Of a DNA stretch of 64,000 nt, positions 2,542-53,391 are shown in pieces. Below the pieces are notes generated by a model. It saw only the letters and a program-made list of their open reading frames with translations. It did not search any database and was not told the origin of the DNA. The translations under genes and the position numbers were made by a program. Origin of the DNA: Agromyces ramosus. GTDB taxonomy: Bacteria > Actinomycetota > Actinomycetes > Actinomycetales > Microbacteriaceae. Location: positions 286,685 through 350,684 of the forward strand of contig NZ_SGWY01000002.1 of NCBI RefSeq assembly GCF_004216665.1, in the 5' to 3' direction. Numbering within the stretch: the stretch's first letter is position 1; each line of letters begins with the position of its first letter.

Positions 2542-3834
2542 TCACTGGTCCCAGGCCGCGTCCATCTCCTCGAGGACCGAGTCCACCGTGGTCTGACCGG
2601 TGAGCAGGCCCTGCACCCCGACGCCGAGCGCGTCGTACACGGCGGGGTTCGGCCAGGTGGAGTTGGGCAGGCCGGTGTAGGCCCCCGATTCGAGCAGCTC
2701 AGCCACGGGCTGGTAGACCGGGAGCAGCGTGTCGGCGCTCACGCCGGTGATCGGAACGGCTCCGGAGAGGTCGGCGTACTGCTGCGCCTGCTCGGGCTCC
2801 GCCACCCAGTCGAGGAACTCCTGGGCGGAGGCCTTCGCGCCGTCCTCGGCCGCGGCGTTGATGGCCCAGGCGTAGTTGGCCGAGGCCAGCATGTAGTCGC
2901 CCTGGCCTTCGGCGGGCGGGAACGCCTGGATGTTGGTCTCCAGTCCGGCGCCGGCGTTGATCGACGTGGCCGCCGACCCGGGGACCGCCGCGCTCAGCGA
3001 CGTGCCGCCGCCGATGCCGTTGGTGATCGAGTCGAACGTGCCGCCGGCCGCGCCGTCCTGGAAGCAGCCACCCTCGTTCATGGCCACGATGTCCTCGAGC
3101 GCCTGCCTCCAGCCGCTGTCGGCGAAGGTGACGTCACCCGCCGCGCGCTGCTCGTTCCAGTCGGGCGTCTCCTCGTACACGCGGGTCGCCGAGATGATCT
3201 GCGCGAGGAGCCCCGTGTTGAACGAGACGGAGCCGGCGAGCGCGGTGAAGCTCTTACCGCCGTCCTTGGCCGTGGTGCAGGCCTTCAGCAGGTCGTCGAA
3301 CGTCGCGGGGAACTCGTCGACGCCGACCTCTTCGGCGGCTGCGGGGTTGTAGACGAACCCGACGGGCGACAGTGAGGTCGGCTGCCCGTAGACCTCACCG
3401 TCGACCTCGTACAGCGACTCGGTGCCCTCGGGGATGAGGCCGGCGGACGTGTCGTCGAGCGGCTCGAGGAAGCCCGCGTCCGCGAGCGTGATCACCGAGA
3501 TCGGCTGGCCCGTTCCCGGGGAGAGGATCGCGACGTCAGCCGCGTTGCCGGCCTGGAACTGAGTCGTGACCTGCGTGTTGTAGGCGTCGGAGGGGTACGG
3601 GATCACCTCGATCTCGGTGCCCGTCTCCTCGGTGTAGGCGGCGGCCATCTGGGCGTAGAAGTCGTCGGCGTCGTTCGCCTGGGCGACCATGAGGCTGAAG
3701 CCGTCGGCGGTGGCGCCGTCGGTGCCGTCGGCGTCGCCGCCGCCACCGGAACAGCCGGCGAGGACCATGACTCCGGCGACGGGAGCCGCGAGGAGCGACC
3801 ACCGAAGCGGCTTGGATGCGGGGTGCTGTGACAT
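2542..3834 (-). CDS. Sugar ABC transporter extracellular substrate-binding lipoprotein
   Basis: This 430-residue family 1 solute-binding protein captures a carbohydrate outside the cell for the permeases at 7407-9209. The N terminus is a lipoprotein signal with the lipobox VLAGC, followed by a Gly/Asp-rich linker. The mature part has the two-lobe pattern of the MalE/UgpB class, with YTEETGTEIEVIPYPSD near the start and AWAINAAAEDGAKASAQEFLDWV near the end. The chosen ATG has an AAAGG box; the longer frame adds an Arg-rich leader that would hide the signal peptide. It is encoded on the opposite strand from its permeases, with the GH106 gene in between. No ATPase gene is present, so a shared MsmK-type ATPase elsewhere is likely. 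Confidence 0.9.
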   Translation of the reverse strand: MSQHPASKPLRWSLLAAPVAGVMVLAGCSGGGGDADGTDGATADGFSLMVAQANDADDFYAQMAAAYTEETGTEIEVIPYPSDAYNTQVTTQFQAGNAADVAILSPGTGQPISVITLADAGFLEPLDDTSAGLIPEGTESLYEVDGEVYGQPTSLSPVGFVYNPAAAEEVGVDEFPATFDDLLKACTTAKDGGKSFTALAGSVSFNTGLLAQIISATRVYEETPDWNEQRAAGDVTFADSGWRQALEDIVAMNEGGCFQDGAAGGTFDSITNGIGGGTSLSAAVPGSAATSINAGAGLETNIQAFPPAEGQGDYMLASANYAWAINAAAEDGAKASAQEFLDWVAEPEQAQQYADLSGAVPITGVSADTLLPVYQPVAELLESGAYTGLPNSTWPNPAVYDALGVGVQGLLTGQTTVDSVLEEMDAAWDQ

Positions 3835-3899
3835 TTCGGACCTTTCGTGACGTCGTTGTCGCCAGCCCTGACGCTGGCTCGGCCGCTGGCCGCAGATCC

Positions 3900-3960
3900 A
3901 GCCTGACACACATTCGCACGATTCTGACATTAGTATCGGTTATGTGCGGCAATAGTCGCG
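3900..3960 (-). promoter_or_regulatory. Upstream region of the binding-protein gene with a candidate operator half-site
   Basis: The gap between the GH106 stop and the binding-protein start is AT-richer than its surroundings. On the plus strand it holds TTCTGACATTAG at 3922-3933. The same half-site occurs twice as an inverted pair in the promoter at 11966-11994, so a shared regulator is likely. No clear -35/-10 pair was found. Confidence 0.45.
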
Positions 3961-3982: not shown

Positions 3983-6900
3983 CTACGGCGTCGACTCCGC
4001 GAGCAGCACGACGGGGCCCGAGAGCCCAGCGGGCAGCGGGTCGGCGGTCGGCTCGAACACGGCGGTCATCGGTGCGAGGATGTCGCCGCTCGGCGCCGCC
4101 GCCTCGGCGATGAGCCGATTGCGCCAGGGAGTGGCGACCTCGACCTCCACGACGTTGACGCCGGCATGCACGGCCGCGGTGACGTCGACGCGGAACGGGG
4201 AGGTCCAGGCGATTCCGCAGTCCGTGCCGTTGACGGCGACGCGGGCGAGGTCGCACACGGTGCCGAGGTCCAGCAGGAGCTGGTCGGCCCCGAGCTGGTC
4301 CACGGTCAGGTCGAGCTCGAGCCGGTAGGTCCCGATGCCCGAGAAGCCCCTCGATTCGTCGAACTCGCTCCACAGGCCCGGGTGCGGGGCCATGGCGACC
4401 GTCGGCCTTCCCGGCACCGTGAGCTCCCAGGTCCCCTCGAGTGGAACCGGCTCCCCGCTGCGTCGTGCGATCGGCGGAGCGGACGCCAGCACGAACACGG
4501 ACCCGAACGGTGGGAGGGAGAGGGCGTACCGGTCGCCCTCGGAGGAGTCCGCGGCGAATCGGAGCGGGATGCTGCGGACCTCGACCGGATCCCAGGCCAC
4601 GAGCGGCGCCGGTGTCTCGAGCGCTCGTGAGACGTCCGCGATGCGGAGTCGGAGCTCGATCGGGTCGCCGGTCGGGTTCGCGAGGAACGTCACGCGCCGG
4701 CCGCCGATCAGGCGCGCGATCTGGCGCACCGGCGCGCCGTCGACCTCGAGTGCGGGTCGCATCCCGAGGTCGGCGAGGGCGGCGCCGAGGTCGGTCGTCG
4801 GGATCACGCGTCCGCGCGGGCGCGGCTCGGCCCAGACGCGGTGGCACGCGTCGTCGAAGGAACGGCCGTCGTCGCCGAGGGACGGTGAGTACACCGGGCG
4901 GGTGCCGACGACCGTCGCCCCATCATCGAGGAGCCGTTCGATGGCCAGGAGGGTCGTGAGCGTCATCCGCTCGCTCGACCCGCCGAGGTACAGCAACCGA
5001 TACGTCGCGCCGTCGGCGACCACGGCACCGCCCTCGACGCGCAGGACGTCGGTCACGGCATCCGGGCCCACGTAGTCGAAGTCGAAGCCCGCCGGAACCG
5101 CGTTGTCGAACGCGTGCCCGAAGAGCCCCGTCACCGGGGCCTCCTCGCCCACGAACACCGCGACGTCGACCGCGGGCGTGCCCATGCTGAGCAGTGCCGA
5201 GCAGCGTGCGAGGTAGTCGATCCATGGGCGCGCGAGCCCCGACCACGTCTCGTTGACCGTGAACGCCTGCCCGAGGAACGGCGCGAGGGCGATGCCGGGC
5301 GGGGGAGCTGCGATCGGCTGGTGGGGCGACGTGTGGATGCAGAAGCGGGTCACGCCGAGCGCCAGCTGCAGGTCGGCGATGTGCTTGAGCGCGCGCGGCG
5401 TGGACGCCCAGGGCCGGTCGAAGGAGGTGAACGCCTCGGCGCCCACCCACGGCTTGCCGTGCACGTGCGCGACCGACGACGCGCCCTTCAGGTCGGCGAC
5501 GTACGTCGGAAGCGGGCCGCTCTGGGCATCGAACGTCCACATCGCGCCCATCGGCACGTCGGCGTGCGAACGCATGGCGAGGTCGTCGCCGAGCTGCGGC
5601 CGTCCGTCCTCGAGCGCCTCGGCGTAGTAGGTCATGCCGCGCCGGTGCGCCTCAGCGGCGAGCGTGCCGTAGTACTCATCGGCGAGGAGCTCCGCGATCG
5701 TGCGCCGGTAGTCGTACAGGAACCGGTCCGCCTCCTCGGGCCCGCCCACCAGGTACCCGCTGATCGCGGGGAGCCAGGGCCGTGCGTCGTAGCCGCGCCG
5801 ACGTGCGAAATGCTCGAGGATGGCCTCCGTCCAGTTCTGGGGGCCGGCCTCGATGCTGTCGCTGAGCAGCGCGGCGAAGCCGGGCGTGCCCGCCCGCGGC
5901 TCGCCGTCGCCGACGCCGAACCGGCGGAGATGCGTGTCGAGGTACGCCCGCACGCGCTCACCGTCGAGCTTGTCGACCTCGAGGCCCGTCACGTCGGCCG
6001 GAGCGGGGCCGTTCGTCTGCCCCGTGAGGGATGCGCCGAGGCGGAGCACGGTCCAGTCGCCCGGGGGTGCCGCCCAGTGCAGGACGCCATCGCGCACGCG
6101 GTCGGTGAGGTCGACGACCGTCGCGGGATCGATCGACCCGAGGTCGACGCTCGCGTCGGTCGGCACGGCGAAGTAGTCGCTGACGACGCCGAAGCCGGCC
6201 TTGGCCTCTGCGTGATGGACGCGCCCGCCTGCGCGCAGGGCGAACTCCGAGACGTCGAAGCGGTCGGTCGTTCGGAGCACCGGCGGCCGCCGCACGCCGT
6301 CGGCGAGCGGCGGCAGTGCGTCGGCCGCGCTCGATCCCGACAGCACCAGCCGGAATCGTCGCGCCGTGACGGCGGGGAAGGTCGCGGTGCGGGCCGGGAT
6401 GGAATCCGGCGGGAGTTCCGCGACATCCCGGTACTCGAGGCCGTCGTCGCTCGCCTGCAGGACCGCGGATGCCGGCGGCGCGGCGCCGAATCCGCCCGGG
6501 CCCGGCAGCCCGACGACGACCGAGCTCACCGTCACGGGATCGGCGAACTCCTGCTCGATCCAGGCCGTCGACCAGCCGTCGGGGTCGCGTGGCAGCGCGA
6601 CCATGCGGCCGAACGATCCGTCGGTCAGGCAGGTCCACTCGTCGATCGGTGCTGACGCGTTCACGTGGGCGGACGTCAGCACCTCGTGCGACCGGTCGAC
6701 GGGGAACGCCAGCACGCGCCAGTCCGTGGCGTGGCGCACGCCGCCCGGCAGGGCACCCCATCGCGGGGAGTCCTGGTACAGGCCCGGCACCGCGGGCAGC
6801 GGCGGCAACGCGGCCGCCACCGTACGCCCGCCCCTGACGACGAGCTCCGACCACACCACCTTCTTCATCGCGTCCGCCGGCGCGACCCACGGCCCGCCGG

Positions 6901-7249
6901 CGGCGCTCCATCCCGACGAGGTCGCGACGGCGAGTTCCATGCCGAGCTCCGAGGTGGTGCGGACCGCCGTGTCCACGGCGTCGTCCCACGCCTCGGACCC
7001 CGGCCGCACCGGCGCGGGCACGACGAGGGTTCCGCCCATCCCGCCGTCGAAGACCTGCACGCCGCGCACGCCGACGTCGTGCAGCCACCGGAGGTCGCGC
7101 ACGATGCCCTCGGGATCGACGTTGCCGTCCATCCAGTGCCACCACGCCCGGGGGCGAGCCGCATCCGGCGGATCGACGAAGGTGCGCCAGAGCGGATCGA
7201 CCTCGGCCTCGGGCCCGGGCTCGGGTGGTGACGACTGGTGCTCCTTCAC
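3983..7249 (-). CDS. GH106-type alpha-L-rhamnosidase
   Basis: This 1088-residue protein is of the size expected for family 106, which removes alpha-linked rhamnose from plant glycosides and polysaccharides. The N-terminal family signature is clear: WRTFVDPPDAARPRAWWHWM, then GNVDPEGIVRDLRWLHDVGV and GVQVFDGGMGG. The centre has the catalytic (beta/alpha)8 region, with YYAEALEDGRPQ and WVGAEAFTSF. The C-terminal jelly-roll (RLELDLTVDQLGADQLLLDLG, WRNRLIAEAAAPSGDI) is typical. It starts at a GTG with GGAAGG upstream. There is no signal peptide, so it should act in the cytoplasm on imported substrate. It stands divergent to the permease operon across a 157-bp promoter region. Confidence 0.85.
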   Translation of the reverse strand: MKEHQSSPPEPGPEAEVDPLWRTFVDPPDAARPRAWWHWMDGNVDPEGIVRDLRWLHDVGVRGVQVFDGGMGGTLVVPAPVRPGSEAWDDAVDTAVRTTSELGMELAVATSSGWSAAGGPWVAPADAMKKVVWSELVVRGGRTVAAALPPLPAVPGLYQDSPRWGALPGGVRHATDWRVLAFPVDRSHEVLTSAHVNASAPIDEWTCLTDGSFGRMVALPRDPDGWSTAWIEQEFADPVTVSSVVVGLPGPGGFGAAPPASAVLQASDDGLEYRDVAELPPDSIPARTATFPAVTARRFRLVLSGSSAADALPPLADGVRRPPVLRTTDRFDVSEFALRAGGRVHHAEAKAGFGVVSDYFAVPTDASVDLGSIDPATVVDLTDRVRDGVLHWAAPPGDWTVLRLGASLTGQTNGPAPADVTGLEVDKLDGERVRAYLDTHLRRFGVGDGEPRAGTPGFAALLSDSIEAGPQNWTEAILEHFARRRGYDARPWLPAISGYLVGGPEEADRFLYDYRRTIAELLADEYYGTLAAEAHRRGMTYYAEALEDGRPQLGDDLAMRSHADVPMGAMWTFDAQSGPLPTYVADLKGASSVAHVHGKPWVGAEAFTSFDRPWASTPRALKHIADLQLALGVTRFCIHTSPHQPIAAPPPGIALAPFLGQAFTVNETWSGLARPWIDYLARCSALLSMGTPAVDVAVFVGEEAPVTGLFGHAFDNAVPAGFDFDYVGPDAVTDVLRVEGGAVVADGATYRLLYLGGSSERMTLTTLLAIERLLDDGATVVGTRPVYSPSLGDDGRSFDDACHRVWAEPRPRGRVIPTTDLGAALADLGMRPALEVDGAPVRQIARLIGGRRVTFLANPTGDPIELRLRIADVSRALETPAPLVAWDPVEVRSIPLRFAADSSEGDRYALSLPPFGSVFVLASAPPIARRSGEPVPLEGTWELTVPGRPTVAMAPHPGLWSEFDESRGFSGIGTYRLELDLTVDQLGADQLLLDLGTVCDLARVAVNGTDCGIAWTSPFRVDVTAAVHAGVNVVEVEVATPWRNRLIAEAAAPSGDILAPMTAVFEPTADPLPAGLSGPVVLLAESTP

Positions 7250-7406: not shown

Positions 7407-8369
7407 ATGACAGTGACGATCGACGAGAGCAGCACTCGCACACTCACCGTGCCGCCCGAGGCGTGGAACACTCCGCCGCCGAGGAAGCGGGGCAAGAAGC
7501 CGCTCATCAGCTTCGGCCACTGGTGGTGGGCCCTTCCGGCCGTGGTCCTGGTCATCGCGGTCCACTACGTCGCGACGCTTACGGGCGGGTTCTTCGCCTT
7601 CACCGACTGGACCGGCCTCGGCGACTGGTCGTTCATCGGCCTCGACAACTTCGAGCGCATCTTCCAGGATCCCCTGATGCTCGGGGCCGTCGGGAACACG
7701 CTGTTCCTCGCCTTCGCCTCGGTCATCCTGACGAACGTCGTCGGCCTGCTCTTCGCGCTCGCGATCAACCGCATGCTCAAGTCGCGGTACATCCTGCGGA
7801 CGCTGCTGTTCATGCCCGTCGTCCTCAGTCCGCTCGCCGTGGCCTACGTGTGGAAGTTCATCTTCCAGTTCGACGGGCCGCTCAACGGCTTCCTGGGCCT
7901 GATCGGGCTCGAGGGGATGCAGAAGGTCTGGCTCGCCGATCCGACGTGGTCGATCTGGGCCATCCTGATCACCGTCGTCTGGCAGCAGACCGGCTTCACC
8001 ATGGTCATCTACCTCGCCGGACTGGCCAGCGTGCCGATCGAGGTCGAGGAGGCCGCGGCGCTCGACGGCGCCGGCGTCTGGCAGCGGTTCCGATACGTCA
8101 TCGTGCCGGCCATCCGGCCGTCGATCGCGATCGCGACCACCCTCGGCATCATCCAGAGCCTGCGCATCTTCGACCAGATCCTCGCCCTCACGGGCGGCGG
8201 CCCGGCCGGCGCGACCGAGACGCTGGCGACGCAGGTCTACAAGCAGGCGTTCTCGCTGGGGCAGTTCGGATTCGGCTCGGCGCTCGCGCTCGTGCTCACC
8301 GTGATCATCCTCGCGTTCGCCATCCTCCAGCAGTACCTCACCCGCGATCGCGACGCAGGAAAGGCCTGA
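7407..8369 (+). CDS. Carbohydrate ABC transporter permease (MalF/UgpA class)
   Basis: This 320-residue integral membrane protein forms one half of the sugar import channel. A cytoplasmic N-terminal tail of about 45 residues leads into six predicted helices. The first is WWWALPAVVLVIAVHYVATL and the last is ALALVLTVIILAFAILQQYL. The permease EAA loop is present as VEEAAALDGAGVWQRFRYVIVP, which docks the ATPase. Translation most likely starts at 7407 (AGAGAG box); the upstream GTG at 7341 adds a Cys-rich leader that is unlikely. It is followed 3 nt later by the second permease. Together with the lipoprotein at 2542 they form a CUT1-type importer. Confidence 0.92.
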   Translation: MTVTIDESSTRTLTVPPEAWNTPPPRKRGKKPLISFGHWWWALPAVVLVIAVHYVATLTGGFFAFTDWTGLGDWSFIGLDNFERIFQDPLMLGAVGNTLFLAFASVILTNVVGLLFALAINRMLKSRYILRTLLFMPVVLSPLAVAYVWKFIFQFDGPLNGFLGLIGLEGMQKVWLADPTWSIWAILITVVWQQTGFTMVIYLAGLASVPIEVEEAAALDGAGVWQRFRYVIVPAIRPSIAIATTLGIIQSLRIFDQILALTGGGPAGATETLATQVYKQAFSLGQFGFGSALALVLTVIILAFAILQQYLTRDRDAGKA

Positions 8370-8372
8370 CCC

Positions 8373-9209
8373 ATGTTCCGCTACACGAAGGCCACCGCGG
8401 TCCGCGAGGTGCTCGTCTGGATCGTCACCATCATCGGCCTGCTGCCGTTCTACCTCCTCGTGGTGACGGCGCTCAAGCCCGACGAGGAGGTGCTGACCAC
8501 CAGCGCCGTGGCGCCGCCGTCGACGATCGACTTCGGGGCGTTCGTCGAGGTGCTCACGACCACGGGACGCAACAGCATCCCGATGAGCATCCTCAACAGC
8601 GTCATCATCACCGCGGGGGCGATCTTCGGCCTCGTGCTGCTCGGCTCGGTCGCGGCCTACGTGATCGCCCGGCGCACGCGAGCCTGGACCAACCTCACCT
8701 ACTACCTGGTGCTGATCGCGATCATCCTGCCCGCCCAGCTGGGCACCGTGCCGCTGTACATCGGCGCGCGCTCGGTCGGGCTCACCGGGAACGCCCTCGG
8801 CATGATCCTGCTCTGGATCGGGATCCTGCTGCCGCTGTCGGTCTTCCTCTACGCGAGCTTCTTCCGTGGGCTCACGACGGAGTACGAGGAGGCCGCGGTC
8901 ATCGACGGGGCGTCCCCGACGCAGGCGTTCTTCCGAGTAGTGCTCCCGCTGATGTCGCCGGCCACCGGAACCGTCGCGATCCTCGCGGGGCTGATCGTCT
9001 GGAACGACTTCTTCAACTCGCTGATCTTCCTCGGCGGATCGGAGACGCAGACGCTGCCGGTGGCGATGTACACCTACGTCGGCGGCCTGGTCTCGGCGTG
9101 GAACAAGATCTTCGCCGTGGTGATCATCTCGATGGTGCCGATCCTGCTCTTCTACATGTTCGCGCAGAAGCGGTTCATCCAGGGCTTCGCCGGCGGCCTG
9201 AAGGGCTGA
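8373..9209 (+). CDS. Carbohydrate ABC transporter permease (MalG/UgpE class)
   Basis: This 278-residue partner permease has six hydrophobic helices and the EAA motif YEEAAVIDGASPTQAFFRVVLP. The C-terminal LLFYMFAQKRFIQGFAGGLKG is the standard ending of MalG-like subunits. An AGGAAAGG ribosome-binding site precedes the ATG. It sits in a tight operon with the first permease upstream and, 9 nt downstream, a SnoaL-like gene. The substrate cannot be read from sequence; the neighbours suggest a plant glycoside. Confidence 0.92.
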   Translation: MFRYTKATAVREVLVWIVTIIGLLPFYLLVVTALKPDEEVLTTSAVAPPSTIDFGAFVEVLTTTGRNSIPMSILNSVIITAGAIFGLVLLGSVAAYVIARRTRAWTNLTYYLVLIAIILPAQLGTVPLYIGARSVGLTGNALGMILLWIGILLPLSVFLYASFFRGLTTEYEEAAVIDGASPTQAFFRVVLPLMSPATGTVAILAGLIVWNDFFNSLIFLGGSETQTLPVAMYTYVGGLVSAWNKIFAVVIISMVPILLFYMFAQKRFIQGFAGGLKG

Positions 9210-9218
9210 GGCGCGATC

Positions 9219-9593
9219 GTGGCCGCCGACAACCGGGTCGCGTTCGAGCGCTTCGTCGACCTCTTCTACACGCAGAAGCGCGTGGCGGATGCCTTCGCCG
9301 GCCACGTCTCGCACGAGTACCGCCAGCACAATCCCACCATCGGTGACGGCCCCGACGCCGCGATCGAGATGCTCACCCCGAAGTTCGACGGCTCGCCCGA
9401 CGCGCACTTCGAGGTGCAGCGGATCCTCGTCGACGGCGACCTCGCCATGGTGCACGTGAAAGCCTGCCGCCCCGGCGCTCCGGACGCCGCGGTCGCGGAC
9501 ATCTACCGATTCGAGGACGGCCGGATCGTCGAGCATTGGGACGTGCTGCAGCAGGTCCCCGCGCATGCCGTCCACGACCATCCGATGTTCTGA
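9219..9593 (+). CDS. SnoaL-like/NTF2-fold small protein
   Basis: This 124-residue protein has the SnoaL/predicted ester-cyclase pattern: an N-terminal helix (FVDLFYTQKRVADAF), YRQHNPTIGDGPDAA, and the closing strands VADIYRFEDGRIVEHWDVLQ. Members of this fold include cyclases, isomerases and dehydratases, and many without known activity. It starts with GTG and lies between the permeases and the isomerase in the first catabolic operon. A role in handling a keto-sugar or aglycone intermediate is inference. It is distinct from the larger SnoaL-like protein at 14600. Confidence 0.8.
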   Translation: MAADNRVAFERFVDLFYTQKRVADAFAGHVSHEYRQHNPTIGDGPDAAIEMLTPKFDGSPDAHFEVQRILVDGDLAMVHVKACRPGAPDAAVADIYRFEDGRIVEHWDVLQQVPAHAVHDHPMF

Positions 9594-9608
9594 CGACCAG
9601 GAGCCACC

Positions 9609-10403
9609 ATGTACACACTCGCACCCAACATCGAACTGCTCTTCACCGAAGCCGGCGACTACCACGAGCGCGTGCGCGCCGCCGCGGCGGCGGGCTTCAC
9701 CTCCGTCGAGATGTGGGGCCCGACGGGCGTCGACGCACCCGCGAAGCCGAAGGACCTCATCGCGCTGAAGGCCGCGCTCGAGGAGACCGGCACTCGCCTC
9801 GAGGCGCAGCTCTCCGAGCCGCGCACCCAGTTCATGATCCCGCCCAAGGACCACTCGGAGTTCTACCGCAAGCTCGACGAGGGGGTCGAGATCGCGCACG
9901 ACCTCGGCTGCCCGCGCATCGTCGTCGGCAGCGGCACCGGATTCGGCGGCTCCAAGCGCCAGACGCAGCTCGACGAGCTCGTGGAGATCTATCGCAAGGC
10001 CATTTCCCAGATCGACGGCTCGGGGATCACGCTCGTGCTCGAGCCGGTGAACATCCGCGTGGATCACCCCGGCGCCCTGCTCGACCGCACCTCCGAGGCG
10101 GTCTACGTCGCGCGCGGGGTCGACTCGACGTTCTTCGGCGTGCTCTACGACATCTACCACTCGGCCGTCGAGGGCGAGGACATGGCAGCCGAGCTCGCGA
10201 ACGCCGGCGATCTCGTGAAGTACGTGCAGCTCGCCGACGCGCCTGGTCGCGGCGAGCCGGGCACGGGGTCACTCGACTGGGCCGATCGCCTCGGCATCCT
10301 GCGCGCTGCCGGCTACGACGGTCCGATCGGACTCGAGTACTACCCGCAGACGGCCTCAGCCGACTCGGTGAAGCTGATCCGGCAGCTCGCGGCGGCAGCA
10401 TGA
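9609..10403 (+). CDS. Hydroxypyruvate isomerase-like TIM-barrel sugar isomerase/epimerase
   Basis: This 264-residue member of the xylose-isomerase-like (AP endonuclease 2) superfamily is closest in pattern to Hyi: MYTLAPNIELLFTE at the start, AAAAGFTSVEMWGP, then LVLEPVN and a closing GPIGLEYYP. The Glu residues in those last two motifs are metal ligands in the family. It probably interconverts a keto/aldo sugar made by the downstream oxidase and lyase. The GAGCC box and ATG are clear. Its stop overlaps the start of the GMC oxidoreductase (ATGA), which implies coupled translation. Confidence 0.82.
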   Translation: MYTLAPNIELLFTEAGDYHERVRAAAAAGFTSVEMWGPTGVDAPAKPKDLIALKAALEETGTRLEAQLSEPRTQFMIPPKDHSEFYRKLDEGVEIAHDLGCPRIVVGSGTGFGGSKRQTQLDELVEIYRKAISQIDGSGITLVLEPVNIRVDHPGALLDRTSEAVYVARGVDSTFFGVLYDIYHSAVEGEDMAAELANAGDLVKYVQLADAPGRGEPGTGSLDWADRLGILRAAGYDGPIGLEYYPQTASADSVKLIRQLAAAA

Positions 10404-11956
10404 ACGCCGTATCGGCGGACGGCACGTCGCGGTATCCCGTCGACGTCGACGTCGTCATCGTCGGCAGCGGCCCGACCGGCGCGGCCTACGCGCGCATCCT
10501 GAGCGAGCAGGCGCCAGGGCTGGCGATCGCGATGTTCGAGGCGGGCCCGACGGTGTCGAACCCGCCGGGGGCGCACGTCAAGAACATCGAGGATCCCGCG
10601 CGACGCGCGGCGGCCCAGCGCGCGTCGGAGGGCCCGGGGGCGGGCGCCGACACGGTCAGCTCTCCCGGCGCGGTGAAGAGCGGGGAGCGACGGGCCCGCC
10701 CGGGCACGTTCCTCCTCGACGACGGGTACGCCTTCGCGGGCGAGGACGGCCTTCCGGTGGCGGCGATGTCGACGAACGTCGGCGGAATGTCCGCGCACTG
10801 GACGGCGGCCTGCCCGCGGCCGGGCGGCAGCGAGCGCATCCCGTTCCTCTCCGACCTCGACGAGCTGCTCGACGAGGCCGACCGCCTGCTCGGTGTCACG
10901 ACCGACGCGTTCGACGGCTCGCCGTTCGGCGCAGTGGTGCGCGAACGCCTCGCCGCCGTCGTGGACGACGACCGCGATCCGGCGACACGAGTGCAGCGGA
11001 TGCCGCTGGCCGTCCATCGCCGCCCGGATGGCCGCCTGGTCTGGTCGGGCTCCGACATCGTGCTCGGCGAGGCGACGCGCGCGAACGCGAACTTCGAGCT
11101 CCTCGACGAGTCGCTCGTCACCCGCGTGCTCGTGGACGGCGGTCGCGCGGCGGGCGTGGAGGTGCGCGACCGGCGTTCGGGCGAGACGCACACCGTGCGC
11201 GCCCGGGTCGTCGTGGTCGCCGCCGACGCGCTGCGAACCCCCCAGCTGCTGTGGGCGTCCGGCATCCGGCCCACTGCACTCGGCCGCTACCTCAACGACC
11301 AGGCGCAGGTGGTCTTCGCGGTCCGCATCCGCGACGCCGAGCGGCTCGCACCCGTCGGTGCCGAGGACCAGGTGGCCGCGCCCGGCGCGCTGAGCGAGCA
11401 GAGCGGGGTGAGCTGGGTGCCGTACACCGATGAGCTGCCGTTCCACGGCCAGGTCATGCAGCTGGATGCCTCGCCGGTGCCGCTCGCGGACGACGATCCC
11501 GTCGTGCCGGGGTCCATCGTGGGGATCGGCCTCTTCTGCGCGAAGGACCTGCAGGCCGACGACCGCATCGAGTTCGCCGAGGACGCGACCGATGCCTACG
11601 GCATGCCCGCGATGCGGATCCACTACCGCCTCACCGATCGCGACCACGACGTGCTCGACCGCGCCCGGCAGGAGATCGTCCGCCTCGGCGCGGCCGTGGG
11701 CGACCCGCTCGACCCGCGGCCGTTCACCATGCCGCTCGGGGCCTCGCTCCACTACCAGGGCACCACTCGAATGGGCGAGTCCGACGACGGCGAGAGCGTC
11801 TGCGGCCCCGACAGCGAGCTCTGGGTGGTCGACGGCGTGTACGTCGCCGGCAACGGCGTCATCCCCACCGCCACGGCGTGCAATCCGACGCTCACGAGCG
11901 TCGCGCTCGCGGTGCGGGGCGCGCGGCGGATCGCACGAGAACTCTCGGCGGAGTGA
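10400..11956 (+). CDS. GMC/pyranose-2-oxidase-type FAD oxidoreductase, probable glycoside 3-oxidase
   Basis: This 518-residue flavoenzyme is expected to oxidise a hydroxyl of a sugar or glycoside. The FAD-binding Rossmann motif VVIVGSGPTGAAYARIL lies at about residues 17-33. GGMSAHW at 128-134 matches the pyranose 2-oxidase STHW-type site, where the His (here 133) binds FAD covalently. The active-site pair is His451 in LHYQGTTRMG and Asn495 in CNPTLT. Characterised relatives with these features include C-glycoside 3-oxidases of the CarA type. Its place beside deglycosidase-like genes supports the 3-keto route. It overlaps the isomerase gene by 4 nt and ends the first plus-strand operon. Confidence 0.85.
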   Translation: MNAVSADGTSRYPVDVDVVIVGSGPTGAAYARILSEQAPGLAIAMFEAGPTVSNPPGAHVKNIEDPARRAAAQRASEGPGAGADTVSSPGAVKSGERRARPGTFLLDDGYAFAGEDGLPVAAMSTNVGGMSAHWTAACPRPGGSERIPFLSDLDELLDEADRLLGVTTDAFDGSPFGAVVRERLAAVVDDDRDPATRVQRMPLAVHRRPDGRLVWSGSDIVLGEATRANANFELLDESLVTRVLVDGGRAAGVEVRDRRSGETHTVRARVVVVAADALRTPQLLWASGIRPTALGRYLNDQAQVVFAVRIRDAERLAPVGAEDQVAAPGALSEQSGVSWVPYTDELPFHGQVMQLDASPVPLADDDPVVPGSIVGIGLFCAKDLQADDRIEFAEDATDAYGMPAMRIHYRLTDRDHDVLDRARQEIVRLGAAVGDPLDPRPFTMPLGASLHYQGTTRMGESDDGESVCGPDSELWVVDGVYVAGNGVIPTATACNPTLTSVALAVRGARRIARELSAE

Positions 11957-11965
11957 CCGCCGTGC

Positions 11966-11994
11966 TTGCTTATGTCAGAAACAGACATTAGAAT
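11966..11994 (+). promoter_or_regulatory. Promoter with a palindromic operator filling the spacer
   Basis: A -35 TTGCTT (11966-11971) and -10 TAGAAT (11989-11994) are separated by exactly 17 nt. The spacer itself is the interrupted palindrome ATGTCAGAAACAGACAT. A repressor bound there would block RNA polymerase directly. A related half-site occurs upstream of the binding-protein gene. The predicted transcript start (about 12001-12004) falls at or just before an ATG. Confidence 0.7.
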
Positions 11995-12003
11995 GAGGAA
12001 ATC

Positions 12004-12057
12004 ATGACAAAGAAGTCCGGCGGCATCGCTCCGCCCCTGACGAGGAGGTCGCGGTGA
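12004..12057 (+). CDS. 17-residue leader ORF, possibly leaderless
   Basis: ATG at 12004 encodes MTKKSGGIAPPLTRRSR and stops at 12055-12057, overlapping the GTG of the next gene (GTGA). It sits about 9 nt after the -10 box, so the transcript may begin at or very near this ATG. A GAGGA run just upstream could also act as a Shine-Dalgarno site if transcription starts earlier. The overlap suggests it couples translation to the downstream beta subunit. It has no ribosome-stalling codon run that would identify an amino-acid attenuator. Whether it is translated is unproven. Confidence 0.45.
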   Translation: MTKKSGGIAPPLTRRSR

Positions 12058-12452
12058 TCCCCGATCGCATCATCGAGCCGAACACGCTCACGACCGATGG
12101 CCGCCGCGCCGAGGTCGAGGTCCGCATCCCGTGGTATCGGGCCCTGCCCGGCTCGTGCATCGCCGGCGCGGTCCTCCGCATCGACGGCGTGCCGGCCGCG
12201 GAGGACTCGCTGCGCTGGACCATGAACGGCCGCACCTTCCGCTTCGACGAGCTGGTCGACGAGACCGGCGAGTGGTGGTTCCCCACCGACTCGGCCGTCC
12301 TGTCCGGCGAGGTTCCCGTCGAGGCCGACGACGCCGAGCACCAGGTCGACGTCGACGTGAAGCTCTACATCCCCTACATCGTCATCGGCGAGAACGAAGT
12401 GCTCCACATCGAGGAGCACGACCGCAAGACCATGAAGGCGGGACAGCGATGA
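12054..12452 (+). CDS. C-glycoside deglycosidase beta-subunit-like protein (DUF6379 type), copy 1
   Basis: This 132-residue all-beta protein matches the small beta subunit of C-glycoside deglycosidases (CarC/DfgB type). Signature features are VEVRIPWYRALPGSCI at residues 23-38, an AGAVLRIDG strand, FRFDELVDETGEWWF and the closing VDVDVKLYIPYIV. It starts at GTG with a GAGGAGG box at 12042-12048. It overlaps the leader ORF upstream and the alpha subunit downstream by 4 nt each. In characterised complexes the beta subunit shapes the active site of the TIM-barrel alpha subunit. It shares the PWYR signature with the second copy at 15416 but is otherwise divergent. Confidence 0.75.
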   Translation: MIPDRIIEPNTLTTDGRRAEVEVRIPWYRALPGSCIAGAVLRIDGVPAAEDSLRWTMNGRTFRFDELVDETGEWWFPTDSAVLSGEVPVEADDAEHQVDVDVKLYIPYIVIGENEVLHIEEHDRKTMKAGQR

Positions 12453-13552
12453 ACCACGCACTCGGCACGCCCATCCAGGGCGTCACGCTCTACAGCTTCA
12501 CTCGCGCGTTCCATGCCCGCGAGTACGACCTCGAGGGCCTCATCCGCAAGGTCGCGGCCGAGGGCTACGGCCCCGGCCTGGAGGTCATCGGGTTCTCGAG
12601 CTTCCGCGGCTTCCCCGAGATCGACGACCGGTTCGCCGGCTGGTTCCGCGACCTCGTCGACGAGGTCGGCCTCGTCACGACGTCGCTCGCCGTGAACGCC
12701 GACATCGGCATCCACCGCGACCGCCTCCTCACGCAGGACGAGCTCATCGACTACATGCGACGACAGATCGTGGCGGCCGCGAAGCTCGGCTTCCCGATCG
12801 CCCGGGTGCAGATCTCGCTCACGCCCGACTCGATGGAGCAGCTCGCACCCATCGCCGAGGAGCACGGGGTGACGCTCGCGCTCGAGGTGCACGCCGACCA
12901 GTACGCCTCGCACCCGCGCATCCTCGCGCTGCGCGACCGCTACGAGCAGGTCGGCTCCCCGTTCCTCGGGTTCACGATGGACTGGGGCGCGACGGTGTCG
13001 GGCTTCGCGCCCTCGCTGCTCGAGGCGTACCGCCGTCGCGGGGCATCCGAGGAGCTGCTCGCCAAGGTCGTCGACCTCTGGAACGGCTTCTACGAGCAGG
13101 GCCCGCCCGCCGACCAGGCCGAGCACGGCCAGCGCTTCGGCGCGTTCATCGGCCTCGCGGCGCAGAACGGCCGGCCCGATCTCGGCATCGACTTCGGGAT
13201 CAACGGCACCGGCCTGTTCGGCCCGGCACGGGTCGACGACTGGCTCGAGATCATGCCGTGGATCCGCCACGTGCACGGCAAGTTCTTCGGCATCGACGAG
13301 CAGGGCGAGGAGCCCTCGGTGCCCGTGCGCGATCTCATCGCGCTGCTCGTGGACAACGGCTACAACGGCGCGATCTCCAGCGAGTACGAGGGCTGGCACT
13401 GGAACCACTGGCAGAGCCCCTTCGACATCATCGCCGGCGAGCAGGCCGTGCAGCGCTCGGCCGCCGAGGCGGCGGGCTCCCGCATGATCACGGATGCCGC
13501 GGAGGCCCGCGCCATCCTCGACGCCCACCTGCGCAAGGCGGTGCGGGCATGA
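12449..13552 (+). CDS. C-glycoside deglycosidase alpha-subunit-like TIM-barrel protein, copy 1
   Basis: This 367-residue protein of the sugar phosphate isomerase/epimerase superfamily resembles the catalytic alpha subunit of C-glycoside deglycosidases (CarB/DfgA type). It starts GVTLYSFTRAFHAREYDLEGLIRKV. The four residues expected to hold the divalent metal are present: Glu146 (LALEVH), Asp178 (FTMDW), His276 (HVHGKF) and Glu312 (SSEYEG), plus His148 as a candidate base. The predicted reaction is beta-elimination of the aglycone from a 3-oxo-glycoside. It overlaps its neighbours on both sides by 4 nt (ATGA). A simple epimerase role is the main alternative. Confidence 0.75.
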   Translation: MNHALGTPIQGVTLYSFTRAFHAREYDLEGLIRKVAAEGYGPGLEVIGFSSFRGFPEIDDRFAGWFRDLVDEVGLVTTSLAVNADIGIHRDRLLTQDELIDYMRRQIVAAAKLGFPIARVQISLTPDSMEQLAPIAEEHGVTLALEVHADQYASHPRILALRDRYEQVGSPFLGFTMDWGATVSGFAPSLLEAYRRRGASEELLAKVVDLWNGFYEQGPPADQAEHGQRFGAFIGLAAQNGRPDLGIDFGINGTGLFGPARVDDWLEIMPWIRHVHGKFFGIDEQGEEPSVPVRDLIALLVDNGYNGAISSEYEGWHWNHWQSPFDIIAGEQAVQRSAAEAAGSRMITDAAEARAILDAHLRKAVRA

Positions 13553-13569
13553 ACGACGAGAGGACCACC

Positions 13570-14607
13570 ATGACCGACGAGACGAACGGCATCGCCGGCA
13601 CCGGCATCCGGCTCGGCCTCACGCTCTACTCGCTCACGAGCGAGTGGGCGGCGGGGCACTACACGTTCGAGTCGCTGCTGCAGGAGGTCGCCGACAAGGG
13701 CCTCGGCCCGGGCGTCGAGTTCAACGGCGCGCAGATGCTGCGCACCTATCCCGACGTCGACGACGACTTCGTGCGCATGTGGAAGACGAACCTCGACCGC
13801 CTCGGACTGGAGCCGAGCGCGATCGGCACCAACCTCGACATGGGCCGCCGTCCCGACCGCGACATGACGCCCGACGAGGAGTTCGAGTTCCTCGCGGTGC
13901 AGCTGCGCACCGCGAACCGGCTGGGCTTCCGCACGGTGGTGATCCGCTCGGCCGGCAAGGAGCTCCTCCGTCGCCTGCTGCCGCTCGCGGAGCAGTACGA
14001 CCAGCGCCTCGGCTACGAGATCCACGCGCCGTCGGGCCCGAACGACCCCAAGGTCGTCGGGATCCGCGAGATGTACGACGAGCTCGGCTCCGACCGCCTC
14101 GGCTTCACCGCCGACTTCAGCTCGACGATGCACAGCCTCTCGCCGACGCTCTTCCGCACGCTGACCCAGATGGGCCTGCCCGAGGAGCACTTCACGGTGA
14201 TGCAGGACATCTGGCGCAAGCCGCTGCCCATGCAGGAGCGCAACCAGGAGTTCGAGGACTACCTGCGGGCGCACGACTTCGACCCGGCACGCCTCGGGCC
14301 GTTCACGCGCCTCGCGTTCAACATGCACGGGCTCGTGCCGCCCGAGGAGTGGCTCGACATCATGCCGCAGATCTTCCACGTGCACGCGAAGTTCTACGAC
14401 ATCGACGACGAGGGCAACGAGCCGGCGATGGACATCCCGCGCATCGTGCGGCAGTTCGTCGAAGGCGGGTACCGCGGCTACCTCTCGAGCGAGTGGGAGG
14501 GGCACGCGTTCGCCGACCTCGGCGAGTCCGACCCGATCGTCCTCGTGCAGCAGCAGCACCGGCTCATGCGCCGGGCGATCGAGGAGGCGGTGGCTGCCCG
14601 TGTCTGA
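13570..14607 (+). CDS. C-glycoside deglycosidase alpha-subunit-like TIM-barrel protein, copy 2
   Basis: This 345-residue paralogue of the preceding gene shares the opening LGLTLYSLTSEWAAGHYTFESLLQ and keeps all metal-ligand positions: Glu150/His152 (GYEIHA), Asp182 (FTADF), His272 (HVHAKF) and Glu308 (SSEWEG). Start 13570 is preferred because GAGAGG lies 7 nt before it; an earlier ATG at 13549 overlaps the previous stop and has no such box. Retained active-site residues argue for a second active enzyme rather than a degenerate copy. It may pair with the beta-like protein at 15416, giving a different substrate range, or form a mixed complex. Confidence 0.75.
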   Translation: MTDETNGIAGTGIRLGLTLYSLTSEWAAGHYTFESLLQEVADKGLGPGVEFNGAQMLRTYPDVDDDFVRMWKTNLDRLGLEPSAIGTNLDMGRRPDRDMTPDEEFEFLAVQLRTANRLGFRTVVIRSAGKELLRRLLPLAEQYDQRLGYEIHAPSGPNDPKVVGIREMYDELGSDRLGFTADFSSTMHSLSPTLFRTLTQMGLPEEHFTVMQDIWRKPLPMQERNQEFEDYLRAHDFDPARLGPFTRLAFNMHGLVPPEEWLDIMPQIFHVHAKFYDIDDEGNEPAMDIPRIVRQFVEGGYRGYLSSEWEGHAFADLGESDPIVLVQQQHRLMRRAIEEAVAARV

Positions 14608-15406
14608 TCAGCTCGCCGAGACCGCCACGACGGATGCCACGACCGAGGTCGCCGCGCTCCGCGACGAGCTCGACCGCCTGCGCGCCGAGCTCGCCGAGGC
14701 GTCCCGCCTCGCGCGCCGCGCGAACGACCGCGGCGAGGTCGAGAACCTCTTCAACCGCTACATGTACCTGCACAACGCGTTCCAGGACGAGCAGATCGTG
14801 CCGCTCTGGGTGAAGGAGGGCACGCCCGGCATCCGGGCGCGCTACACGAACGCCGGGCAGTACACGGAGTACGAGAGCGTCATCCGCTATCACCGCGGAC
14901 GCCCGACACCCGTCGGCAAGCTCATCCTGCACTCCACGACCACGCCCGTCATCGAGGTCGCCGGCGACGGCGAGACCGCCAAGGGCGTGTGGATCATGGC
15001 GGGCACGGAGTCGGGACTCACCGACCCCGAGGTCGCCGAGGAGAGCCCCGACTACATGTACTCGCCCGGCGAGGTCCAGGGCAAGAAGGTCTGGGCGCAC
15101 TGGGTGTGGTGCAAGTACGCGATCGACTTCCTGCGCCAGGACGGCGAGTGGAAGATCTGGAAGTTCCGCTGCTACGAGCTCGCCCGCGCGCCGTTCGAGG
15201 AGAACTGGGTCAGCTTCGGCGAGAAGAACCAGCACGCGTTCGACCTCGACCTCATGTACTTCGGCGACGACGGCAAGCCCGTCTTCATGCCGCCGGCCGA
15301 CGAGCCGGTGCCCAGTGCGTACCACCCGTACAGCCCATCGACCCGGCAGGTGCTCGAGCCCGCCCCGCCCGTGCCGTACGACACGTTCGACGACACGTTC
15401 GAGTAA
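14600..15406 (+). CDS. Large SnoaL-like protein of the glycoside operon, function unknown
   Basis: This 268-residue protein opens with an Ala/Glu-rich segment and a short coiled coil (about residues 12-40, [19 protein letters not shown]). An NTF2/SnoaL-like fold follows: [39 protein letters not shown] and [19 protein letters not shown]. It starts at GTG, overlapping the upstream alpha-like gene by 8 nt, and ends 9 nt before the second beta-like gene. It is longer than most SnoaL-like proteins. The location between the alpha2 and beta2 genes suggests it works with the lyase, for example on the released aglycone or an unstable enolone. This is inference. Confidence 0.75.
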
Positions 15407-15415
15407 GGAACCCCC

Positions 15416-15814
15416 ATGGCCACTCACAACTCCCTCTACCGGGAGACGGACGTACGTCGGCACCCCGAGGGGATCGCCGTCTCCATCCAGCTCCCGTGGT
15501 ATCGCAGCCTCTGGCTGTCGGCGGTCGACGACGTCGCCGTCGCGGTGAACGGCGCCGAGATCCCCAAGGACCGGCTCCGCTTCGAGCTGCAGGGTCGCAG
15601 CTATCGCATCGACGAACTGCGCGACCAGTGGGACACGCTCTGGTTCCTGCAGGATCGCCCCGACGTGGTGATCCCGCTCGACGACGTGCCCGAGGCCGGC
15701 GACCGCATCGACGTCGACGTGACGCTCACGCTGCGCCTGCTCTACATGCAGATCGCGCCGCAGCGCTACGTCGGCAACCGCGTCCAGGTCGAGCGGGAGG
15801 TGGTGCTGTCGTGA
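15416..15814 (+). CDS. C-glycoside deglycosidase beta-subunit-like protein (DUF6379 type), copy 2
   Basis: This 132-residue protein is the same length as the copy at 12054. It shares the core [20 protein letters not shown], the [19 protein letters not shown] hairpin and the closing [23 protein letters not shown] precedes the ATG. It overlaps the Gfo/Idh gene by 4 nt (GTGA). Outside the PWYR region the two beta copies differ strongly, so they probably bind different alpha partners or substrates. Assignment rests on motif and context, without a structure comparison. Confidence 0.72.
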
Positions 15815-17001
15815 GCGGCACGCTGCGGGTCGCGATGATCGGCCACGGCTTCATGGGCGCCGCCCACTCGCAGGGCTGGCGCACGGCGCAGCGCGTGTTC
15901 GACCTCCCGGTCGAGACCGAGATGGCGGTGATCGTCGGCCGCAACGCCGAGGGGGTCGCGGATGCCGCGGCCAAGTGGGGCTGGGCGGAGTCGGCCACCG
16001 ACTGGCGCGAGGTGATCGCGCGCGACGACATCGACCTCGTCGACATCGTCACGCCGGGGGATTCGCACGCCGAGATCGCGATCGCCGCGCTCGAGGCGGG
16101 CAAGCACGTGCTGTGCGAGAAGCCGCTGGCGAACACGGTCGCCGAGGCCGAGGCCATGGCGGATGCCGCCGCTCGCGCTGCGGCACGCGGCATCCGTGCC
16201 ATGGTCGGCTTCACCTACCGGCGCGTTCCGGCCGTGACCTTCCTGCGCGACCTGATCGCCCAGGGGGCGGTCGGCCGCATCGCGCAGGTGCGCGCGAGCT
16301 ATCGACAGGACTGGCTGGTCGACCCCGACATGCCGCTCGGATGGCGCCTGCAGAAGGAGCACGCCGGCTCGGGCGCGCTCGGCGACATCGGCGCGCATGC
16401 CATCGACCTGGCGCAGTTCGTCACGGGGATGCAGCTCGAGCGGGTGTCGGGCGTCGTCGACACCATCGTGAAGCAGCGGCCGCTGCAGGGTGCCGGCTCG
16501 GGGCTCTCGGGCACGGCCGCCGAGGGGTTCGGCGAGGTCAGCGTCGACGACATCGCGATCTTCACCGGTCGCTTCGCCGGCGGCGTGCTGGGGTCGTTCG
16601 AGGCGACGCGGTTCGCCACCGGACGCAAGAACGCGCTCTCGATCGAGGTCTCGGGCGACAAGGGCGCGCTCGCGTTCGACCTCGAGGACCTCAACTCCCT
16701 GCGGTTCTACGACCGCACGGCGCCGAACCAGCTGCAGGGCTTCACGAAGATCCTCGTGACCGAGCCGGAGCATCCGTACGTCGCGGCCTGGTGGCCCGCC
16801 GGCCACACGCTCGGCTACGAGCACGGCTTCAGCCACCAGGTGAAGGACCTCGTCGAGGCCATCGACGCCGGCATCGATCCGCATCCGTCGTTCGCCGAGG
16901 GGCTCCAGGTGCAGCGCGTGCTCGCGGCGGTCGAGCAGAGCTCCGAACGCGACTCCGGCTGGGTCGGGGTCGGCGAGCGAACCCTGGCGCACACGGCATG
17001 A
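15811..17001 (+). CDS. Gfo/Idh/MocA family NAD(P)-dependent oxidoreductase
   Basis: This 396-residue sugar dehydrogenase-type enzyme has an N-terminal Rossmann fold with [13 protein letters not shown] and [20 protein letters not shown]. The family hallmark [15 protein letters not shown] sits near residue 110. The C-terminal domain has [16 protein letters not shown], including the His used in catalysis by relatives. In 3-keto-sugar pathways such enzymes reduce the 3-oxo product to a normal hexose or move the oxidation along. It starts at GTG with GGGAGG upstream and closes the second operon, with a hairpin 58 nt after its stop. Confidence 0.9.
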
Positions 17002-25199: not shown

Positions 25200-25317
25200 C
25201 AGGAAATCCTAGATCCCCGCGCGGCCCTGACCGGTCTCGGTTGCGGTAATCCGCCTGCCCTCAGCGGCATTGCCCATTCGCCTGGAACGTCGCGGAAGGA
25301 ATCGCATCGGCGTACGT

Positions 25318-25398
25318 GCGGAAGGAGGGACTTGAACCCTCACGCCCGAAGGCACAGGAACCTAAATCCTGCGTGTCTGCCGATTCCACCACTCCCGC
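25318..25398 (-). tRNA. tRNA-Leu (anticodon UAG)
   Basis: Read on the minus strand, the gene has an acceptor stem GCGGGAG paired with CTTCCGC (one G-U). The anticodon arm is CAGGA-TTTAGGT-TCCTG, giving UAG. A variable arm suitable for a class II tRNA and a T arm with GTTCAAG are present. The 3' CCA is not encoded. The length is 81 nt. Confidence 0.92.
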
Positions 25399-48815: not shown

Positions 48816-49186
48816 GGGGATGATCGGTTTCGACATCGCCTGCGAACCCACGAGAAGCGGGCCGAGGATGCAGGGTTATCTCGTAAACGATCTCTGCGAA
48901 ACAATAACTGCCAATAAGAAGCAGTCTGACTTCGCCCTCGCTGCCTAAGCGAGTGCGCTAGTCCGTCAGTCCGCGGGTCGGTTCCCGCCCCGGTCACTGG
49001 CGTCATCTAGGGAACTTGCTGCACGTCGTCGCCTGAGCGACGTGCGGGACTCTTTCAGGCTGGGCCTGTCGACTTGGGTGCCTGTGGCAAAGGTCGGGGC
49101 CGAGTAGAACGCTCGTACAGGCTGCGCCCGGAGAAGGCGTGGAATCACAGCGATGGACGGGGGTTCAATTCCCCCCATCTCCACCA
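48816..49186 (+). ncRNA. ssrA: Transfer-messenger RNA
   Basis: Starts GGGGATGATCGGTTTCGACA and ends CCATCTCCACCA, pairing as the tRNA-like acceptor (one G-U). The T arm GGGTTCAATTCCC is intact and CCA is encoded. The tag frame at 48910-48948 reads ANKKQSDFALAA then TAA, resembling other actinobacterial degradation tags ending ALAA. The length is 371 nt. Works with SmpB to free stalled ribosomes. Confidence 0.97.
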
Positions 49187-53315: not shown

Positions 53316-53391
53316 GCACCTCTAGCTCAATCGGCAGAGCAACTGACTCTTAATCAGTGGGTTCAGGGTTCAAGTCCCTGGGGGTGCACCA
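53316..53391 (+). tRNA. tRNA-Lys (anticodon CUU)
   Basis: Acceptor GCACCTC pairs with GGGGTGC (two wobble-tolerant positions). The D arm is GCTCAATCGGCAGAGC; the anticodon arm is ACTGA-CTCTTAA-TCAGT giving CUU; the T arm is CAGGGTTCAAGTCCCTG. CCA is encoded. Confidence 0.96.

Follow-up and report, generated by a model that had tools for sequence, protein, structure and literature searches.

A 64,000-nucleotide stretch of the Agromyces ramosus genome (G000:C2:286685-350684; hereafter the window) carries, at positions 7407–17001, a gene cassette that very probably serves the uptake and breakdown of plant aryl C-glycosides, along with some O-glycosides. C-glycosides resist hydrolysis, the sugar being held by a carbon–carbon bond. 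The open reading frames (ORFs) follow the order proposed in an earlier interpretation made from the DNA letters (the sequence-only reading), namely permease, permease, SnoaL, isomerase and oxidase, then beta, alpha, alpha, SnoaL, beta and dehydrogenase; Pfam assigned them in turn to permease, permease, SnoaL_2, AP_endonuc_2, GMC oxidoreductase, CGDB, AP_endonuc_2, AP_endonuc_2, SnoaL_4, CGDB and Gfo/Idh. Because key members are orthologous to the C-glycoside deglycosidase AgCGD2, to PsG3Ox and to MtCarA, with catalytic and metal-binding residues kept, we read the cassette as a C-glycoside breakdown system. Its genes overlap or nearly touch at five junctions (end/start 12452/12449, 13552/13549, 14607/14600, 15406/15416 and 15814/15814) and therefore look co-transcribed. 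Beyond this, we regard it as a serious but tentative possibility that the catabolism employs two overlooked enzymes: an LdpA-like NTF2-fold protein (SnoaL4) acting on the (keto)glycoside or on the enone set free, and a deglycosidase-like pair (alpha5/beta5) acting on an aglycone-free keto-sugar or on O-glycosides.

Two pairs of C-glycoside deglycosidase (CGD) subunits lie on the plus strand, beta1 (12054–12452) with alpha1 (12449–13552), and alpha2 (13549–14607) with beta2 (15416–15814). Both beta subunits (52 and 57.9 bits, respectively) exceeded the 27.6-bit cut-off of the CGDB family PF19906, which, to judge by the names of the matching PDB chains, is the former DUF6379; both alpha subunits carry AP_endonuc_2. 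Pair 2 is orthologous to AgCGD2, as alpha2 matched 7dnm_A at an E-value of 8.3 × 10−202 (85.5% identity over 337 amino acids) and beta2 matched 7dnm_B at 3.3 × 10−66 (74.8% over 131 amino acids), while alpha1 (7dnm_A, 5.6 × 10−58) and beta1 (matching 7dnm_B and 8qvc_B) are paralogs within the same family. The likeness to the CarBC/DfgAB deglycosidases suggested by the sequence-only reading was thereby supported, and the alpha proteins did not show the better match to an unrelated epimerase family that would have spoken against it. All five metal ligands (E147, D179, H269, K271 and E305, a 1His/2Glu/1Asp/1Lys site) and the catalytic H149 and E307 are kept in both alpha1 and alpha2; mutational work on PuCGD and MiCGD showed the metal ligands to be needed and the His and Glu to matter, the Glu less so in PuCGD (Mori et al. 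2021, PMC8563793). The alpha and beta proteins of the window are predicted, by orthology with the 7DNM heterodimer of known structure, to form active complexes. The CGDB domain is rare. In a phylum-wide sample of 396 genomes, five had a match at E ≤ 0.001 and three had one above the family cut-off; among 299 genomes of the host's family there were 20 with the domain. Both samples include the host's own genome. Two copies in less than 4 kb are therefore not a matter of chance.

The two pairs likely serve different linkages, as judged from the residues lining their substrate sites. AgCGD2 accepted a C8-glycoside only, and AgCGD1 and MtCGD mainly C6-glycosides (PMC8563793); alpha2 keeps Asn248 and Met249 of AgCGD2, and Met249 is not kept in alpha1, where the residue depends on the alignment (Gly in one, Leu in another). 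By homology pair 2 would be of the C8 type and pair 1 possibly of the C6 type.

The oxidase (10400–11956, plus strand), a GMC oxidoreductase, scored 890 bits with PsG3Ox (7qf8) and 775 bits with MtCarA (7dve) and contains the motifs GGMSAHW and NPTLT, in agreement with its earlier designation as a pyranose-oxidase-type enzyme; it is a glycoside 3-oxidase (G3Ox/CGOx) dependent on flavin adenine dinucleotide (FAD). His451 and Asn495 correspond to His440 and Asn484 of PsG3Ox, which are needed for that enzyme (PMC10646112), so the catalytic pair is kept, and the substrate loop ASPVPLADD is identical to that described for PsG3Ox (PMC11673046). PsG3Ox prefers the C3-OH of glycosides over free glucose, and it acted on mangiferin but on neither rutin nor carminic acid (PMC10646112); for this reason rutin, which the sequence-only reading had listed among growth substrates to try, is an unlikely substrate of the oxidase by homology.

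The cassette is of a type already known, because the PsG3Ox/PsCGD cluster of Pseudarthrobacter siccitolerans 4J27 (L012) has the same order of oxidase, beta1, alpha1, alpha2, SnoaL4, beta2 and Gfo/Idh, together with the isomerase, at identities of 79% (oxidase), 77% (alpha1), 83% (alpha2) and 84% (SnoaL4), and because that cluster has been published, PsG3Ox being followed by two genes each of CGD_B and CGD_C (Taborda et al. 2023, PMC10646112). The cassette is thus not a new system. The published description, in the part of the paper available, names the oxidase and the four CGD genes but not the SnoaL, isomerase and Gfo/Idh genes; unlike the P. siccitolerans cluster, the one described here has GH106, GH3 and solute-binding protein genes divergently upstream.

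From these homologies the following route can be proposed. An ATP-binding cassette (ABC) importer composed of a solute-binding protein and two permeases would take the glycoside in, and intracellular GH106 and GH3 enzymes would remove outer rhamnose or a beta-linked sugar and so expose the C-linked glucose. The C3-OH of this glucose would then be converted to a ketone by the FAD oxidase, with formation of H2O2, and the two metal-dependent CGD heterodimers (alpha2/beta2 of the C8 type of AgCGD2, alpha1/beta1 of a different type that may be C6) would deprotonate C2 and expel the aglycone, leaving 2-hydroxy-3-keto-glucal, which a TIM-barrel protein and the Gfo/Idh enzyme may hydrate and reduce to glucose. 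Permease A (7407–8369; an ATG is possible at 7407, the start given earlier) and permease B (8373–9209) are both BPD_transp_1 proteins on the plus strand. The solute-binding lipoprotein (2542–3930, minus strand; SBP_bac_1/SBP_bac_8, likely start near 3834), which shows by eye a lipobox-like VLAGCSG, was absent from the earlier gene list, and no ATPase gene for the importer was seen in the cassette.

The hydroxypyruvate-isomerase-like TIM barrel at 9609–10403 (plus strand; AP_endonuc_2) may be the enzyme that hydrates or isomerises the released keto-sugar, and the candidate 3-keto-glucose reductase is the Gfo/Idh/MocA oxidoreductase at 15814–17001 (plus strand), whose GFO_IDH_MocA domains agree with the dehydrogenase called from the letters. 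Neither reached the cut-off of its nearest curated family: the former scored 161.6 bits with TIGR03234 (hydroxypyruvate isomerase, cut-off 353) and the latter 347.5 bits over nearly full length with NF052479 (levoglucosan dehydrogenase, cut-off 650). Both are relatives only and were not filed under these names. The 50 matches listed for the TIM barrel include neither AtOGE nor the CGDs, which excludes nothing. A small SnoaL-like protein, NTF2-fold by family, lies at 9219–9593 (plus strand; SnoaL_2, 57.7 bits) and has a counterpart in 20 of the 80 related loci; a second one lies upstream of the window at L007:13562-14020.

The system extends well beyond the cassette. Five CGDB domains occur at C2:271917, 279713, 281098, 298795 and 302127, a spread of about 31 kb, and the three upstream ones, likewise missing from the earlier list, lie outside the window, about 5 to 15 kb upstream; the island drawn at 7407–17001 was therefore too small. 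The upstream part (L007) comprises alpha5, beta5, a ThuA protein, a ROK-type regulator, a second Gfo/Idh protein, a DHA2-like MFS transporter, a second 3-oxidase, two beta-alpha fusions, a SnoaL-like protein, an alpha/beta hydrolase and a GH43-like protein (regulator, oxidase and GH43-like protein recognised by eye). The two adjacent fusions (L007:10707-13531) are one-chain beta-alpha CGDs of 434 and 491 amino acids, the first an ortholog of the solved 8qrz (815 bits); in fusions of the 8qrz type the metal ligand His269 is replaced by Gln in all 21 distinct sequences, and no paper on 8qrz or a similar fused CGD was found by title in the open-licence literature. Ten other CGDB-positive genomes of the family (of the 20), picked for having four or five CGDB domains, were compared: in nine the domains lie within one region, and in the tenth (G055) one is about 0.6 Mb away. 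Four of the remaining CGDB-positive genomes have one CGDB each. CGDB was found in none of the five other same-genus genomes of the sample; in an empty-site comparison the downstream FMN-reductase gene was present in all five and the left anchor in one, and in four of these genomes the compared stretches of the neighbourhood shared no other gene.

Within this island the alpha5/beta5 pair (L007:1785-3309, that is G000:C2:270785-272309) departs from all other CGDs compared. Beta5 is a CGDB protein (29.8 bits); alpha5 matched no Pfam family and aligned with AgCGD2 alpha at 4 × 10−30. ORFs were classed by best BLAST match as alpha1, alpha2, fusA, fusB or alpha5 (85, 71, 39, 136 and 57, respectively); dropping pieces shorter than 200 amino acids and duplicates left 81, 67, 21, 28 and 50 distinct sequences, references included (the alpha5 of L105 repeats another counted sequence in truncated form). 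In alpha5 the catalytic His149 is replaced by Gln in 50 of 50 distinct sequences and Glu307 by Gly in all 49 covering the site; both residues are kept in the other four classes wherever covered. The metal ligands of alpha5 are retained, Glu147 and Asp179 in 50 of 50 and His269, Lys271 and Glu305 in 49 of 49 covered sequences. The alpha5 clade is monophyletic with support 1.0; alpha5 and fusA are monophyletic as assigned, and the other classes only without members under 50% identity. A metal site that is kept around a swapped catalytic pair points to a changed reaction. Tyr17, Arg123, Ser124, Asn248 and Met249, which in AgCGD2 contact or line the substrate site (PMC8563793), are all changed in alpha5 as well; alpha1 and fusA, however, depart from AgCGD2 at several of these aglycone-contact sites too (fusB keeps Asn248 in 21 of 28 and Met249 in 28 of 28 sequences), which weighs against this reading, so that only the His/Glu change sets alpha5 apart. 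Our best guesses for its reaction would be hydration of the freed keto-glucal or elimination from O-glycosides. Replaced catalytic residues of the alpha5 type were not found in the open-licence literature, supplements excluded.

The other companion, SnoaL4 (14600–15406, plus strand; 268 amino acids), matched SnoaL_4 and has an LdpA-like NTF2 fold. CGD parts accompany it in 77 of 80 loci, in Actinomycetota and Alphaproteobacteria, and in 54 of the 80 it is placed between alpha2 and beta2; all 10 SnoaL4-bearing genomes among the 299 of the family are also CGDB-bearing. One homolog, on a short contig of a metagenome-assembled genome (L010:1367-2161), is split over two frames by a frameshift or assembly error. 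In five genomes SnoaL4 is cleanly missing at the same junction with the rest of the cassette intact, the absence from the whole genome being not absolute (at most 9 and 6 candidates scored per genome); alpha2 and beta2 are adjacent in these five islands, which rules out a structural subunit of CGD2. This inspection left aside the CGDB-positive, SnoaL4-negative genomes G045, G073, G171, G188 and G232 (1 to 3 CGDB each). We infer that SnoaL4 is an auxiliary NTF2-fold enzyme of the C-glycoside pathway. No report of SnoaL or NTF2 proteins with C-glycoside deglycosylation was found in the open-licence literature, supplements excluded.

Three roles for SnoaL4 were weighed. It may act on the glycoside or keto-glycoside itself, as an LdpA-like lyase or as an epimerase widening the substrate range, which is possible if by no means assured. 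The gamma-formaldehyde lyase LdpA (8ABT-8ABW), found in a different genomic setting, shares the NTF2 fold over 199 residues, and the invariant His111 of SnoaL4 stands at the position of LdpA His97, a His mutated in the LdpA work; however, the identity is only about 22%, and in the phmmer alignment Asn59 occupies the place of LdpA Asp40. As part of the NTF2 His–Asp dyad Asp40 is presumably catalytic, and with Asn59 at its position SnoaL4 was not filed as LdpA.

An unlikely role is that of a hydratase turning 2-hydroxy-3-keto-glucal into 3-keto-glucose by scytalone-dehydratase-like chemistry run backwards. The strong association with CGDs, the invariant His111 at the LdpA His97 place and a fold near that of the elimination enzymes LdpA, scytalone dehydratase and LinA speak for it, but all five inspected islands that lack SnoaL4 are otherwise intact and retain the TIM-barrel protein. 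Furthermore, SnoaL4 has an export-signal-like N-terminus in 12 of 13 alphaproteobacterial loci under a rule set after the N-termini had been inspected, whereas the CGD subunits beside the Novosphingobium aromaticivorans homolog (SARO_RS18725) have no such start by eye, so that its compartment may differ from that of the product. Of the 69 non-alphaproteobacterial loci, 16 were scored, all under threshold, and 53 without a qualifying start or motif were counted negative (L079 has no export-signal value). The N. aromaticivorans DSM 12444 cluster (L112, on pNL2) is built differently, with a GMC oxidoreductase, two DUF6379/TIM pairs, an NTF2 protein, a DUF1080 protein with a Tat-like start by eye, ThuA, a GPH symporter, a catalase and a TonB receptor.

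Action of SnoaL4 on the freed aglycone is likewise doubtful. In its favour, a set of aromatic-ring genes is found some 5 to 15 kb upstream of the CGD island, and the reported LdpA substrates are aryl compounds; against this, most loci have SnoaL4 between alpha2 and beta2 and not among genes for ring cleavage, and it stands alongside CGDs in two phyla while its other neighbours differ. The gene set itself (L006:5920-16247, G000:C2:255920-266247) comprises an extradiol-type dioxygenase, two FAA hydrolases, an FAD monooxygenase, a cyclase, an amidohydrolase, an SDR protein, a LysR regulator and an Asp/Glu racemase, and may degrade an aglycone.

Both glycosidases reported alongside the cassette were recovered by Pfam on the minus strand, where, like the solute-binding protein, they diverge from the permeases: a GH106 alpha-L-rhamnosidase (3983–7249; PF17132, 727 bits, over its cut-off) and a BglX-like GH3 glycosidase (393–2531; N and C domains, likely ATG near 2414). 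The GH3 protein scored 548.5 bits with NCBIfam BglX, under the cut-off of 666, and is probably intracellular, as no signal peptide was seen by eye. A rhamnosylated or flavonoid substrate is plausible from the GH106 neighbour.

Several points weigh against C-glycoside import and breakdown as proposed. GH106 stands divergently beside permease A, at 62–72% identity, in only 9 of 80 related loci, and its link and that of GH3 to C-glycosides is circumstantial; the substrate class is assigned by homology only. We infer the activities in this organism, the order of the steps, the trimming and the hydration and reduction roles, and for the isomerase and Gfo/Idh proteins the roles are guesses, their nearest curated cut-offs having been missed. 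No four-residue beta-loop insertion of the kind reported for C6-type enzymes (PMC8563793) could be made out by eye in beta1, which leaves the C6 assignment of pair 1 weak. Once, with full 10-kb flanks (L079), SnoaL4 occurs with no CGD match. A cassette serving mainly O-glycosides, whose 3-keto derivatives fall apart by elimination and leave the CGD pairs secondary, is quite improbable, because although GH3 and GH106 adjoin it, PurA is reported to act on O-glycosides whose oxidised products deglycosylate without enzyme, and DfgCD of gut bacteria cleaves O-glucosides (PMC11170127), 3-keto-O-glycosides require no CGD on the PurA report, yet two full pairs keep all catalytic residues, and PsG3Ox oxidised the C-glycoside mangiferin, not the O-glycoside rutin (PMC10646112). 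Taken together, the sequence-only reading was right in kind, overstated newness and the rhamnosyl and rutin detail, and was too narrow in extent.

The C-glycoside system preferred here shares its chemistry with several described ones. Pair 2 has all catalytic and metal residues of AgCGD2 from Arthrobacter globiformis (7DNM/7DNN, PMC8563793), with no notable difference, pair 1 being a paralog. CarA/CarBC of Microbacterium sp. 5-2b and PurA/PurBC of Paenarthrobacter sp. No. 37 likewise combine an FAD oxidase with a CGD heterodimer, but for each of them one CGD is named, whereas the window has two and the island has five beta domains. The dgpABC/dfgABCDE systems of gut Bacillota share the CGD chemistry and use NAD-type DgpA instead of an FAD oxidase (PMC11170127). 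Multiple CGDs in a genome are not new, because Catenibacillus scindens and C. decagia carry four and six dgpBC sets, respectively, with dgpA apart from dgpBC (PMC11170127); two 3-oxidases in one strain are also known (PMC11673046). A route of oxidation, elimination, hydration and reduction is described in levoglucosan breakdown and has been suggested for operons related to it; the lgdA-B1-B2-C operon likewise uses TIM-barrel and Gfo/Idh enzymes but has another substrate and another first oxidase (PMC10066097), the comparison with the Lgd-type model covering the window's Gfo/Idh protein only.

Elsewhere in the window are a tmRNA gene at 48816–49186 (tag ANKKQSDFALAA), a tRNA-Leu gene at 25316–25398 and a tRNA-Lys gene at 53316–53391.

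The actinobacterial system can thus comprise as many as five CGD pairs gathered in one island. The remaining genes of CGD clusters were left open by the authors of the CGD structures (PMC8563793), and the lasting interest lies in the two conserved companions, SnoaL4 and alpha5/beta5, the testing of which would help to complete the pathway.

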